Positions 13,566 to 18,858 of a stretch of DNA of 40,531 nucleotides are shown one piece after another (positions within the stretch are counted from its first letter, which is position 1; the number at the start of each line of letters is the position of its first letter). The stretch comes from a virus. Under the pieces are notes generated by a model. That model did no database searches, was not told the DNA's origin, and saw only the letters and a program-made list of their open reading frames with translations. The translations under genes and the position numbers were made by a program. The stretch lies in IMG/VR virus record IMGVR_UViG_3300022744_000013, positions 1 through 40,531 of that record; one strand, written 5' to 3'.

Positions 13566-14876
13566 ATGCGATTGATCCCCCGCGATAGCCTCATTATCGC
13601 CCCGAACCGCCAGCGGAGAGAGTTTGAACCGGATGCGTTGACCGACCTCGCTAACTCGATTTCGTCTCGAGGGCTAATGCATCCAATCGTGGTTCGGGAA
13701 ACCCCCGCCGGGCCGGTTCTCGTGGCCGGTGAACGCCGATTGCGCGCTCTCGATACTCTCGCCCTACTCGGTTCGCCAACGCGTTGCAATGGGCTAGAAA
13801 TCGACCCTACGACCATCCCCGTCATCTCCCTTGGCGAACTCTCTCACCTCGAAGCTGAAGAGGCCGAACTCGATGAAAATCTCCGTCGTCAAGATCTCTC
13901 CTGGCAGGAACGGTCGGAAGCCCTTGCGCGTCTGCATCGACTGCGTATTGCTCAAGCCAAAGCTGCCGGGACAACCCACTCGATCGCGGATACGCTTCGT
14001 GAAGTCGAAACGACTGACTATACGACTGACCGCCAGTCGATCCTTCTCGCCGACCACTTGGACAATCCCCTTGTCGCCGGGGCCAAATCTGAAAAAGAAG
14101 CCTTCAAAGCCCTCAAGCGCCAGGAGGACAAAGCCAAGTCTGAACGGCTGGCGGAAGTTGTCGGTGCTTCTTACAACTCATCCGTCCACAACCTTCATCA
14201 CACCGACTGTCTTGATTGGCTGGCCGGATGCCCTGACAATACCTTCGACGTCATTCTCACAGATCCGCCATATGGGATGAATGCCCAGGGCTTTGGCGAT
14301 GGTGGGGGGACGATGGTCAACTCCGAACACCACTACGACGACAGCCCCGAGGCCTGGCGCACCCTCATGACGGCTTTCATCCCCGAGGCTTTCCGCGTCG
14401 CCAAGCCCCAGGCTCACGCCTATGTCTTCTGCGACTTCGACAAGTTCCACGAACTCAAGACCATCATGCAATCCGCTGGGTGGTACGTCTTCCGCACTCC
14501 GCTGATCGTCCACAAGCTCGGCTCCGGTCGAGTCCCTCTTCCTGAACACGGACCTCGTCGCCAGTATGAAACCATCCTCTATGCAATCAAAGGGAACCGT
14601 CCGGTTACTGGTATCTACTCCGACGTTATCTCTTGCCGTCTGGAGGAAAATCTCGGTCATGGCGCAAACAAGCCCGTCGAGCTTTACGTCGATCTCCTTA
14701 AGCGCAGTACCCGGCCCGGCGATACGGTCCTGGACGCGTTCGCTGGTTCCGGCACTATTTTCCCTGCAGCGCATGCGTGCAAGCTATACGCCACAGGACT
14801 GGAAATGAGCGCCGAATACTACGGCATCAGCGTCGCCCGGCTCAACGCCCTCGACGACGAACCGGCTTTCGTCTGA
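13566..14876 (+). CDS. ParB-like domain fused to DNA methyltransferase, 436 aa
   Basis: Residues 1 to about 200 are a ParB/Spo0J-type domain with VAGERRLRAL (53-62), the conserved ParB box. Residues 205-436 are a beta-class amino-methyltransferase: DPPY (233-236) comes first and the SAM-binding DAFAGSG (390-396) last. The predicted reaction is transfer of methyl from S-adenosylmethionine to adenine N6 (or cytosine N4) in DNA, possibly to protect phage DNA from host restriction. The ParB part may supply sequence recognition or CTP binding. ParB-methyltransferase fusions are known in phages and mobile elements. The stop overlaps the next ATG. Confidence 0.9.
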   Translation: MRLIPRDSLIIAPNRQRREFEPDALTDLANSISSRGLMHPIVVRETPAGPVLVAGERRLRALDTLALLGSPTRCNGLEIDPTTIPVISLGELSHLEAEEAELDENLRRQDLSWQERSEALARLHRLRIAQAKAAGTTHSIADTLREVETTDYTTDRQSILLADHLDNPLVAGAKSEKEAFKALKRQEDKAKSERLAEVVGASYNSSVHNLHHTDCLDWLAGCPDNTFDVILTDPPYGMNAQGFGDGGGTMVNSEHHYDDSPEAWRTLMTAFIPEAFRVAKPQAHAYVFCDFDKFHELKTIMQSAGWYVFRTPLIVHKLGSGRVPLPEHGPRRQYETILYAIKGNRPVTGIYSDVISCRLEENLGHGANKPVELYVDLLKRSTRPGDTVLDAFAGSGTIFPAAHACKLYATGLEMSAEYYGISVARLNALDDEPAFV

Positions 14877-15307
14877 TGCGTCGTGTCATCATCGAGTCGC
14901 CCTTCGCCGGCGATACCGTCCGCAACATCGCGTATGCCAGGGCCTGTGTCCGCGACTCCCTCCTTCGCAAAGAATCCCCCTTGGCCTCTCACCTCCTCTA
15001 CACCCAGTCCGGTATCCTCGAAGACCTCGTCCCAGAAGAACGCTCCCTTGGCATCCGGGCTGGTCTCGAATGGTCCTTCCACGCTGACGCCATCATCTTC
15101 TGCCTCGACCACGGCTGGTCCACTGGTATGCACGAAGCCCTTCGCTATCACCGGGGCTTCCACAAGACCATCGAATACCGCTACCTCTATGCCACTTCCC
15201 AGGAGTCTGCCCCTCATGATCCCCTCCGGCCCATCGAACGCCAAACTGATGATAGTCGCGGACTGCGTGTCCTACCGGGATCTTCAGACCAAGACAATCC
15301 TCTGTGA
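14876..15307 (+). CDS. Nucleoside deoxyribosyltransferase/DUF7768-like protein, 143 aa
   Basis: Residues 1 to about 110 resemble phage DUF4406/DUF7768-type Rossmann proteins related to nucleoside 2-deoxyribosyltransferases: VIIESPFAGD at the N-terminus, a helical AYARACVRDSL segment, PEERSLGIRAGLEWSFHADA, and DHGWSTGMHEAL. These are thought to act on nucleotides or their bases. The last 31 residues are low-complexity and overlap the polymerase gene by 92 bases, so the natural stop may have been lost by a frameshift. It begins by TGATG overlap with the methyltransferase gene. Confidence 0.72.
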   Translation: MRRVIIESPFAGDTVRNIAYARACVRDSLLRKESPLASHLLYTQSGILEDLVPEERSLGIRAGLEWSFHADAIIFCLDHGWSTGMHEALRYHRGFHKTIEYRYLYATSQESAPHDPLRPIERQTDDSRGLRVLPGSSDQDNPL

Positions 15308-16892
15308 CCGGGAGTTCGACAAGCTCCTAGCCGAGGCCGGCGTCATCCGGTCGCAAACCTTCGTCACCGCCCTAATCCGGGAGCAAGTCAATGGACAAAC
15401 CTTCGACACCCAGGTCGCACAGACCAAGCGCGAAATCACTCCTGACCACTCCCCTCTTCATGATCGTTACGTCAAGCGTTCTGTCCTGGCTGGTCTTGAT
15501 CTACTCAATCAAGACATTGATCTCGTTCGCCCGAAGATCATCTTGGCTTTGGGGAATGGTCCTCTCTTCGCTCTCTGCGGTCGTTGGGGGATAAAGTCCT
15601 GGCGCGGCTCCATCCTCACCTACACCACACCGAAAGGTCACACCTGCTATGTTATTCCTACTTACCCCCCGAGTTACATCTACGGCGTTTGGAAGGATCG
15701 AAACATCGCTATCCACGATGTACGAAAGGCCTGGACTGCTGCAAACCATGCTCAGCCTCTCCGACCCCCGGAGTACAACTTCATCATCGAACCGTCTTTT
15801 CCCGAGGCTGCTCGCACGCTTCAGTCCCTTCTCACTCGGGTTCGATCGGGACCGGCAAAGCTATCGGTTGACATCGAAACACGCGGCGGGCATATTGCTT
15901 GTCTCGGTTTGGCTTGGTCTGCCACTGACGCGATCTGCATCCCACAGATGAGGGCAGTGGTCCAGGAAATGCCGAACTGGCAAACCCGCATCCACTACTG
16001 GCGGGAAGAGGAGGAAACCTTCCTCACCTACCTCCTCTACCAGCTTCTCACCCATCCGAACTGCCAGGTCATCGGACAGAACTTCATCTACGATGCGCAG
16101 TATATCTACCGACACTTCCACTTCATCCCGAACTTCGCCCGGGACACCATGCTTGCCCAGCACTCCATGTTCTCTTCCATGCAAAAGGGCCTCGATTTCC
16201 TCTCCTCCATGTACACAGACTTCCATGTCTACTGGAAGGACGAGTCTAAAAACTGGGACCCGAAACTCGGAGAACGCCAGCTCTGGATATACAACTGCAA
16301 AGACTGTGTCGTCACTTACGAAATCGACGAGGCCCAGCAATCCGCCATCGACGCTTTCACTGCCACCACCTGGCCCGAACTCCGGGAAGTCCATGACTTC
16401 CAACAATCCCTGTTCTACCCCGTTCTCCAGACCATGATCACTGGCATCCGAACCGACAATGAACGGAAGGCCGAACTCTCAGCCGAACTCCATTCCGCCA
16501 TTCAATCCCGAGAGGCCTGGCTCACCGACCTCCTCGGTTTCCCTCTGAATATCCGATCCCCGAAGCAAATGCAGGATACGTTCTACCGGCTCCTGGGGCA
16601 GAAAGAGGTCAAAAAGCGGAGCAAGAACGGCGCCTCGGTCACTACCGACGACTCGGCTTTGGAAACCATTGCTACCCGCGAACCGCTTCTCAAGCCCCTC
16701 TGTGACGTTATCCGGGAACTCCGAAGCCTCGGGGTCTTCCGCTCGACCTTCCTCGAAGCCCCGGTCGACCACGACCAGCGCATGAGGTGTTCCTTCAACA
16801 TCGCCGGAACGGAAACCTACCGTTTTAGCAGTTCTGAAAACGCCTTTGGCTCGGGCATGAACCTGCAAAACATTCCAAAAGGAGACGATTGA
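15216..16892 (+). CDS. polA: Family A DNA polymerase, N-terminal part: UDG-like + 3'-5' exonuclease + thumb
   Basis: A 558-aa protein. Residues 1-180 follow a uracil-DNA-glycosylase-like fold (KLMIVADC, LALGNGPL, VIPTYPPSYI), but the usual GExPG and HPS motifs are altered, so catalysis is doubtful. The DEDD exonuclease follows with VDIET (218-222), NFIYDAQ (289-295) and YNCKD (359-363), all acidic residues present. The polymerase thumb and the motif GMNLQNIP (547-554) end the protein eight bases before the ATG of the palm/fingers gene. AGGAG lies about ten bases before the ATG at 15216; ATG 15249 is an alternative. A missing single base near 16889-16892 would join the two genes. Confidence 0.85.
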   Translation: MIPSGPSNAKLMIVADCVSYRDLQTKTILCDREFDKLLAEAGVIRSQTFVTALIREQVNGQTFDTQVAQTKREITPDHSPLHDRYVKRSVLAGLDLLNQDIDLVRPKIILALGNGPLFALCGRWGIKSWRGSILTYTTPKGHTCYVIPTYPPSYIYGVWKDRNIAIHDVRKAWTAANHAQPLRPPEYNFIIEPSFPEAARTLQSLLTRVRSGPAKLSVDIETRGGHIACLGLAWSATDAICIPQMRAVVQEMPNWQTRIHYWREEEETFLTYLLYQLLTHPNCQVIGQNFIYDAQYIYRHFHFIPNFARDTMLAQHSMFSSMQKGLDFLSSMYTDFHVYWKDESKNWDPKLGERQLWIYNCKDCVVTYEIDEAQQSAIDAFTATTWPELREVHDFQQSLFYPVLQTMITGIRTDNERKAELSAELHSAIQSREAWLTDLLGFPLNIRSPKQMQDTFYRLLGQKEVKKRSKNGASVTTDDSALETIATREPLLKPLCDVIRELRSLGVFRSTFLEAPVDHDQRMRCSFNIAGTETYRFSSSENAFGSGMNLQNIPKGDD

Positions 16893-17635
16893 TGACCTCC
16901 TCCACCGTCCTCGCCCATCAGGCTCTTCCCAACATCCGCAAGCTCTTCATCCCTGACCCGGGCATGACCTTCTTCGACATCGATCTCGACTCGGCCGACC
17001 TCCGCATCGTTGTCTGGGAGTCAGACTGCGTTGAGATGAAACAAATGTTCGCCGAAGGTCTCAAGCCCTACGTCGAAGTCGCTAAGGAATACTATCGTGA
17101 CCCAACTATCACCAAACACCACCCTTCCTACAAGCTATTCAAAGCCCTCTGTCATGGCACAAACTACCTCGGGACTCCAGCAGGTCTGGCCGGACGAATT
17201 GGCCTCGATGTTGCTGAGACAGAAAAAATCCAGAAGTGGTATTATGAGCATTTCCCGGAAATCAGAACTTGGCAAGACGCTCTCTGCTCTCGTCTCAGGT
17301 CTGATCGCTATGTCGAAAATGTCTTCGGCTACCGCATCTGGTTCTTCGATCGAATGGAAGGCACCATCTTTAACCAAGCTGTTGCTTCAATCCCTCAATC
17401 TACCGTTGCCTGTCTCATCAATCGAGGCTATCGAAATATCCATGATAACGAAGAACAAATTCAAGTTCTCCTTCAGGTTCACGACTCCCTCGCAGGGCAG
17501 TTTCCCACACACCTTCGCGACGAAAGTGTCGATAAGATTGTTAACCACTGCTCTGTTCCGCTACCTTATGCCGAACCCCTAACCATCCCGGTGGGGATCG
17601 TGACGAGTGAACACTCTTGGGGGAGCTGCGGCTAA
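16892..17635 (+). CDS. polA: Family A DNA polymerase, C-terminal part: palm and fingers
   Basis: This 247-aa piece starts at ATG 16892, overlapping the previous TGA, with AAGGAG at 16879-16884. It carries the active site: motif A DLDSADLR (31-38, catalytic Asp31), the O-helix KALCHGTNYLG (84-94) and motif C VHDS (196-199, catalytic Asp198). His88 sits where E. coli Pol I has Phe762, and motif C ends in Ser rather than the usual Glu. Bases 17090-17570 are poorer in GC than their surroundings. The protein could assemble with the N-terminal part as a split enzyme, or the gene may be frameshifted. Confidence 0.85.
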   Translation: MTSSTVLAHQALPNIRKLFIPDPGMTFFDIDLDSADLRIVVWESDCVEMKQMFAEGLKPYVEVAKEYYRDPTITKHHPSYKLFKALCHGTNYLGTPAGLAGRIGLDVAETEKIQKWYYEHFPEIRTWQDALCSRLRSDRYVENVFGYRIWFFDRMEGTIFNQAVASIPQSTVACLINRGYRNIHDNEEQIQVLLQVHDSLAGQFPTHLRDESVDKIVNHCSVPLPYAEPLTIPVGIVTSEHSWGSCG

Positions 17636-18858
17636 TGGCTCGTCGGCATTTTGATAACTGGATCTCGGCATTCATGGACTACGCGTCCTTCTCCGAGGCT
17701 CCGAAGCACATGCACTTCTGGACCGCCGTCTCTACCATCGCCGGGGCACTTCGCCGACGCGTCTGGGTAGACATGGCGTATTTCAAGTGGTATCCGAACT
17801 TCTACGTGATCTTGGTCGCTCCACCCGGCATCGTGTCTAAGTCCACGACCGCTTCCATCGGCATGTCTCTGCTCAAAAAGGTCCCGGATATAAAGTTCGG
17901 CCCAGACGTCGTGACCTGGCAAGCCCTCGTCACTGGCTTCGCCGAGTCCACTATGTCCTACGAGTACGAAGGAGAGTTCCATGCCATGTCTGCCCTCACC
18001 ATTGAGTCGTCCGAGTTTGGAAACCTTCTTAACCCTAAGGACGTGGAGATGGTGGATCTCCTGGTCTCCCTTTGGGACGGGAAGCAAGGATCATTCGAAA
18101 AGAAAACTAAAGGCTCTGGTTGTGATATCGTGGAGAACCCCTGGATCAACCTCATCGCCTGCACGACTCCAGCTTGGATCGCGGGTAATTTTCCTGAGTA
18201 TATGATCGGTGGGGGATTTACCTCCCGCTGCGTCTTTGTCTACGCCGACAAAAAGGCGAAGTACGTGGCCTACCCAGGCCAGCACGTCCCCGACAACATG
18301 CGGCAAATCGCCCAGAACCTCGTCGAGGATCTGTCCTTCATCTCGATCCTGACCGGTCCCTACCGCCTGACCCCAGCAGCCCTCAAATGGGGGAATGACT
18401 GGTATGAAGCCCACTACTCCGCCAAGCACATCCACCTCGACGACGAACGCTTCGGTGGCTACCTCGCACGCAAGCAGACCCATATCCACAAACTCGCCAT
18501 GATCCTCGCCGCTGCTGAATCCGATCGCATGTTCATCGAAGCCGAGCACCTCGCCATCGCCCACCAGATGATTACCGACCTCGAACCCGACATGCAGTTC
18601 GTCTTCTCCAAGATCGGCAAGTCCGAGGATGCTGTCTACGCCGAGCGTCTGATCTGGTACGTCGTCAAGCGCGGCGGGTGCCCGTACTCCGAGGCCTATC
18701 GCTTCGTCCACTCCCACTTCCCGAAGATGCAGGACTTCGAAGCCGTCATCACCGGAGCTGTCCGCACCGGGTACCTCATCCTCCGCCAACAAGGCACCGA
18801 GATGACCCTGCTTCCAGGCCCGGCGGCATTGGCTACAGGGTCTAAGCCCGAGGCATAA
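17635..18858 (+). CDS. DUF3987-type helicase/primase-like ATPase, 407 aa
   Basis: The N-terminal pattern FDNWISAFMDYAS...HFWTAVSTIAGAL...NFYVILVAPPG matches DUF3987-type proteins, usually placed beside phage polymerases as replicative helicase/primase candidates. The P-loop region is APPGIVSKST (62-71): Lys and Ser/Thr are kept but the Gly before Lys is Ser. A Walker B-like ALTIESSEFG lies further on. The ATG at 17635 overlaps the polymerase stop (TAATG), implying coupled synthesis. It is the last rightward gene. No separate zinc-binding primase domain is visible. Confidence 0.75.
   Translation: MARRHFDNWISAFMDYASFSEAPKHMHFWTAVSTIAGALRRRVWVDMAYFKWYPNFYVILVAPPGIVSKSTTASIGMSLLKKVPDIKFGPDVVTWQALVTGFAESTMSYEYEGEFHAMSALTIESSEFGNLLNPKDVEMVDLLVSLWDGKQGSFEKKTKGSGCDIVENPWINLIACTTPAWIAGNFPEYMIGGGFTSRCVFVYADKKAKYVAYPGQHVPDNMRQIAQNLVEDLSFISILTGPYRLTPAALKWGNDWYEAHYSAKHIHLDDERFGGYLARKQTHIHKLAMILAAAESDRMFIEAEHLAIAHQMITDLEPDMQFVFSKIGKSEDAVYAERLIWYVVKRGGCPYSEAYRFVHSHFPKMQDFEAVITGAVRTGYLILRQQGTEMTLLPGPAALATGSKPEA

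Follow-up and report, generated by a model that had tools for sequence, protein, structure and literature searches.

The replicative DNA polymerase gene of the virus studied here is divided into two adjacent genes, and these very probably encode two subunits whose translation is coupled and which come together again as a single family A polymerase. The window, that is, the whole 40,531-nucleotide stretch analysed (positions 1 to 40,531 of IMG/VR record IMGVR_UViG_3300022744_000013), contains both genes on its plus strand. Judged from the sequences of its relatives, the split is a real and repeatedly evolved feature rather than a sequencing error, since the polymerase gene is interrupted at an identical position in many related phages, some of which carry entire genes between the two parts.

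The first gene (15,216–16,892; 558 aa) specifies the N subunit, with a UDG-like domain, a 3'-5' exonuclease, the thumb and the first part of the palm, and the second (16,892–17,635; 247 aa) specifies the C subunit, with palm motif A, the fingers carrying motif B, and motif C. Pfam profiles locate a UDG-superfamily domain (PF03167) at 15,237–15,701 (N residues 8–162; 26.9 bits, cut-off 24.3) and a 3'-5' exonuclease domain (PF01612) at 15,819–16,328 (N residues 202–371). PF00476, the DNA_pol_A profile, matches both ORFs above its cut-off, with profile positions 4–133 in N (16,467–16,880) and 139–354 in C, and the two ORFs jointly align to one full-length homologue. The N ORF ends in NLQNIPKGDD*, while the C ORF, in the -1 frame relative to N, begins with MTSSTVLAHQALPNIRKLF; stop and start overlap in a TGATG at 16,890–16,894, which marks the point of fission. 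A Shine-Dalgarno sequence for the C gene, AAGGAG at 16,879–16,884, lies within the K-G codons of PKGDD, with the ATG 7 nt further on. The ORFs, profile matches, overlap and spacing thus confirm the sequence-only reading in its central claim, a family A polymerase divided between LQNIP and motif A.

The catalytic Asp of motif A (D31 of C; 16,982–16,984), which we take to correspond to D705 of E. coli Pol I in Pol I numbering, and the HD of motif C are invariant in the alignments, and the motif A Glu is replaced by Asp. Motif C itself (17,480–17,488) reads HDS instead of HDE, a form invariant in the polymerase family of the window. Profile searches of the 40.5-kb record returned no PolB or PolC family match, and the enzyme encoded by the two genes is the sole DNA polymerase detected in it. 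A split intein of the DnaE type can be ruled out, as neither half carries intein fragments at its end: N stops directly at PKGDD*, and C begins at most 12 residues before PNIRK.

Stop/start coupling also occurs at two further junctions of the polymerase operon. A TGATG at 14,874–14,878 couples a gene in which a ParB N-terminal domain is fused with an N6/N4 DNA methyltransferase (13,566–14,876) to a DUF7768 gene (14,876–15,307, plus strand), which in turn shares 92 nt with the N gene, and a TAATG at 17,633–17,637 couples the C gene to a downstream DUF3987 gene (17,635–18,858, plus strand).

Six close relatives (L004, L005, L006, L017, L032 and the isolated Vibrio phage VS-ABTNL-3) are split after the same PKGD peptide, which is more than chance would produce; in each, the first frame closes behind PKGD(D/E/G) and the second opens ahead of (L/M)PN(I/V)(R/K). 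Identity to the window reaches 75% for N and 83% for C in L004 and is about 33% in VS-ABTNL-3. The layout of stop and start varies among the split relatives (TGATG, TAATG, TGATCATG, TGAAATG), as do the new N-termini. Close relatives with one gene occur as well, namely L018 and L019, and fused relatives 70–78% identical exist alongside the split ones. Further splits were found in L124 and, by a wider scan with the C half of VS-ABTNL-3, in additional loci within L125–L203. Among the matches listed there are 44 distinct split junctions and about 101 fused ones, counts drawn from a non-random sample: the best 80 hits of two alignment queries (of 523 and 512 confirmed IMG/VR relatives), together with the hits of one pattern scan and of two scans led by a single protein, and a small number of phage records, with sequences coming mainly from metagenome assemblies. 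Sixteen of these 44 junctions lack an insert (-8 to +2 nt), 13 hold 43–421 bp and 15 hold 507–2899 bp, so that N and C lie 43–2899 bp apart in 28, mostly with intact genes between them. Bacterial genome contigs yielded only two matches: L205, where a MAG contig carries the fused gene as an open frame, and the distant L206.

The same enzyme is also broken elsewhere in some genomes, as judged from gene layout, at the boundary between the UDG and exonuclease-polymerase domains. In L009 (730–3383) and L014 (3061–5714) the UDG part precedes the exonuclease-polymerase ORF by about 320 bp and lies in another frame, and in Caulobacter phage Kuura (L120, 2977–6381) a UDG-like gene is set apart from the exonuclease-polymerase gene by other, separate genes.

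These junctions bear directly on two readings that would dispense with separate subunits. According to the first, an assembly or sequencing error removed one base near 16,885–16,892, and the gene is single, with a product of about 806 residues. A single base would indeed join the frames, L018 and L019 are fused, and artefacts of this kind are known, for instance in the polymerase of Enterococcus phage GiddyUp, which is broken by a frameshift. Nonetheless, such an error is highly improbable here: independent contigs and one isolated phage share the codon at which the gene is divided, many junctions separate the halves by whole genes, and N ends cleanly in a conserved peptide, unlike the garbled out-of-frame tail of GiddyUp. 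Restoring a single protein would, moreover, create a 12-residue linker, LMTSSTVLAHQA, different from that of the closest fused relatives, which measures 2–4 residues (e.g., KGDE-AFG-LPN and SGDE-SSG-LPN). The GiddyUp locus (L207, 1460–3810, annotated 'DNA polymerase (x2)') was itself considered as a same-site split and left out of the count owing to this garbled N tail; its sequence suggests that the two annotated genes result from a frameshift, either an artefact or a mutation.

According to the second, programmed -1 frameshifting at the AAAAGG run (16,877–16,882) yields a fused polymerase, alone or together with the short product. The C gene does lie in the -1 frame in 13 of the 16 splits without insert among the matches listed, although the TGATG, TAATG and ATGA overlaps impose that frame by construction; in two others (L032 and L125) it lies in the +1 frame and in one (L147) in the same frame as N. 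With C frames of -1, +1 and 0, no single recoding event could fuse the halves, and none could fuse the 28 pairs lying 43–2899 bp apart. The A AAA GGA of the window does not fit an X XXY YYZ heptamer, and the run is not conserved, being replaced by CCG AAG GGT in L005 and CCA AAG GGG in L004. The separated halves in 28 of 44 junctions, the mixed frames and the non-conserved run together rule out both a one-base error and a conserved frameshift as explanations of the split. Frameshifting as the route to the window's polymerase is accordingly very unlikely, though a minor fused product may arise by recoding at this locus alone. Of the three interpretations offered by the sequence-only reading, then, the two subunits stood, while the missing base and the -1 slip did not.

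Both halves are under purifying selection, with dN/dS, where measurable between split pairs, of 0.09–0.16 for N and 0.08–0.17 for C, values to be read in light of many synonymous distances near saturation. It is scarcely conceivable that the halves are decaying pieces of a pseudogene in a phage replicated by the host polymerase, given dN/dS of about 0.08–0.17 in both, invariant catalytic residues and the wide retention of both halves.

Codon usage at the junction points to internal initiation. Compared with alternatives drawn from the same gene, the synonymous codons following QNI rank at a mean percentile of 0.27 for pairing with the 16S 3' end in split genes (n = 44) and 0.52 in fused genes (n = 101), the numbers referring to the matches listed and relatedness being ignored. 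Codon choice in split genes therefore favours a stronger Shine-Dalgarno sequence, and in fused genes it does not. Even so, in fused genes the Shine-Dalgarno-likeness of the junction ranks, at the median, within the top 5.5% of all windows of a gene, and in half of these genes it reaches the top 5%, in a rank test that likewise ignores relatedness. We propose that the PKG(D/G) codons pre-adapt the junction for internal initiation; the Shine-Dalgarno-like character that fused relatives already show at this site may account for the repeated fission there.

An AlphaFold2 model of the closest fused relative, L019 (18 rows, with sequences from phage records left out; pLDDT 87.9, pTM 0.83), gives the structural setting of the break. 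Residues 549–563 are predicted to be mostly coil, with low to middle confidence, ahead of the motif A strand at 574–581. The best PDB matches of the model in Foldseek are Klenow-type Pol I structures, the top one being 8oo6 (Pol I, E 2.4e-28), and a Pol I-like fold is thus predicted for the fused relative. In E. coli Pol I numbering the break presumably lies near residues 681–690, between N678/P680 and D705. On this numbering the thumb and the RxSSS element, with the equivalent of R668, belong to the N chain, and the equivalents of D705, the O-helix and D882 to the C chain, so that neither chain can hold the whole active site.

We infer the following course of synthesis and assembly. The ribosome would finish the N gene, stop at the TGA and restart at the overlapping ATG, aided by the AAGGAG within the PKGD codons, and the two chains would be produced in similar amounts. 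They would then reassemble at the thumb/palm boundary into one active polymerase, to which N would supply the UDG-like, proofreading and thumb parts and C would supply motif A, the fingers and motif C. Recurrent splits, intervening genes, codon choice and selection all lend strong support to two subunits made by coupled translation.

The ORFs between separated halves are ordinary, intact operon genes that differ from lineage to lineage. They include ribonucleotide reductases (L192 and L203, with the Pfam RNR barrel domain), which we read as putative class II enzymes, as well as ThyX (L149), a dUTPase (L176), an RNase_T-type exonuclease (L136), methyltransferases (L132 and L146), MazG-like pyrophosphatases (L155 and L152), HNH endonucleases (L158, L165 and L202) and a Lon_C domain (L172). 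L004 has a 58-aa zinc-ribbon-like ORF at this place and VS-ABTNL-3 a 184-aa gene. DUF7768, the upstream neighbour in the window, is located between the polymerase halves in L130 (by Pfam), and L133 has an ORF that looks similar to it on visual inspection.

The presence of endonuclease genes among this cargo raises the question of whether a group I intron or homing endonuclease once entered beside the motif A codons and was later lost or replaced. Such an account concerns only the origin of the split, not its present working, and it has precedents in T4-like gene 43 and Aeh1 nrdA (PMC2988022). L165 and L178 form an occupied/empty pair, in which the HNH gene (L165, 3068–3508), sitting precisely at the point where the polymerase is divided, is present only in L165; the flanks of the L178 junction (around 3495) are 87% identical in DNA to L165 on one side and 90% on the other. 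The empty L178 is, however, itself already split, which means that the HNH insertion in L165 postdates the split or was lost again in L178. Most junctions are devoid of an endonuclease, the only HNH genes among the relatives being the three named above, and a search for Rfam introns gave no match in 11 loci with separated halves. Stop/start overlaps with an embedded ribosome-binding site, for their part, require no element at all. A mobile-element scar is therefore a rather unlikely origin of the split. In the window the insert at the break is zero, so neither an intron nor a mobile element is present there; a group I intron is ruled out for the window on this ground, along with the negative Rfam result in the 11 relatives.

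Several known systems resemble the one described here in part. For the OM43 phages MEP401 and MEP402, a family A polymerase encoded in two parts on either side of a small ORF has been published, and the authors suggest an intron (PMC10580990). As in the window, a phage family A polymerase with an HDS motif C is divided into two genes near motif A, but the break in MEP401 is shifted by about 13 residues towards the C-terminus, to the end of IKTLFLSRYGE immediately ahead of the motif A strand, and no UDG domain was seen in its N protein. In the T4-like Aeromonas phages 25 and 44RR, the two chains 43A and 43B co-purify with DNA polymerase activity (PMC2988022); this too is a replicative phage polymerase split in two, although it belongs to family B and is associated with a seg endonuclease or intercistronic sequence. 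The NrdA of Aeh1, split by mobE, is fully active (PMC2988022) and likewise represents a phage enzyme in two genes, but it is a ribonucleotide reductase whose splitting element is still present. An isolated counterpart is VS-ABTNL-3 (PVS_29/PVS_28/PVS_27, MF497422), which shares the family and the break, after NLQNLPKGDG*, and differs in the gene between its halves. The UDG-exonuclease-PolA proteins of phage MW202489 and Microcystis phage Mel-JY34 have the same domain order by alignment, in contrast to the window in a single gene; both have a methyltransferase upstream, as the window does, and Mel-JY34 also a DUF3987 gene downstream. The HDS form of motif C is found in a functional polymerase, DpoZ of phiVC8 (S583; PMC8599892). 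Bacillus phage Moonbeam, considered as a same-site split, was rejected: a homing endonuclease lies between its parts, but at an earlier position.

The distribution of split and fused genes suggests repeated change. On a tree of joined N and C proteins from the matches listed (113 proteins, 38 split), the fewest state changes number 14, and well-supported branches force at least nine; with distant outgroups and fewer rows, the corresponding values are 13 and five. In the neighbourhood of the window, 0% of bootstrap trees unite the near splits in one clade, for N only and C only alike. The window, L004, L005 and L017 have (A/Q)HQ(A/P)LPN in common at the start of C, and their splits are therefore probably one event, or one spread by recombination. 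Among divergent lineages, the C subunits of L135, L136, L146, L149, L199, L201 and L202 begin alike, with a sequence resembling MVAKTIxLPN, which may point to an ancient split common to them or to selection on the start peptide. Change in the opposite direction also seems to occur, as in the fused L128, nested in a split clade of Vibrio phages: its linker, YMHRVYGFDC, resembles the starts of split C subunits (SYMEKVYGMDC and SYMEKTYGFDC), so it is likely a re-fusion.

A broader hypothesis, which we consider evenly balanced, concerns a large set of uncultured phages: their replicative family A polymerase would be an obligate enzyme of two chains, and its gene would have passed from fused to split or back, at a single codon, no fewer than nine times, with changes in both directions. 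This hotspot would result from a ready-made ribosome-binding site in the PKG(D/G) codons at a break-tolerant loop, and the gap would then become a landing site for nucleotide-metabolism and homing endonuclease genes.

Split phage enzymes are already known, and split phage polymerases have so far been reported as isolated oddities attributed to introns or homing endonucleases. In the open papers searched, there appears to be no description of a split that recurs at one codon, of a ribosome-binding site embedded there or of such varied cargo: nothing on recurrent polymerase fission was found there, nor any mention of split genes in the portions of a PolA survey (PMC11348598) covered by the search terms. 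A break found so often at one site, both empty and filled with cargo, beside fused relatives 70–78% identical, offers a natural experiment on how an essential enzyme made as one chain comes to be two subunits, what draws fission back to a single codon and which positions in Pol I-type enzymes permit a cut. Permissible cut sites in such enzymes are useful for split-polymerase engineering, and genomes in which the polymerase gene is split will be miscounted by gene callers and by phage surveys that rely on polymerases.
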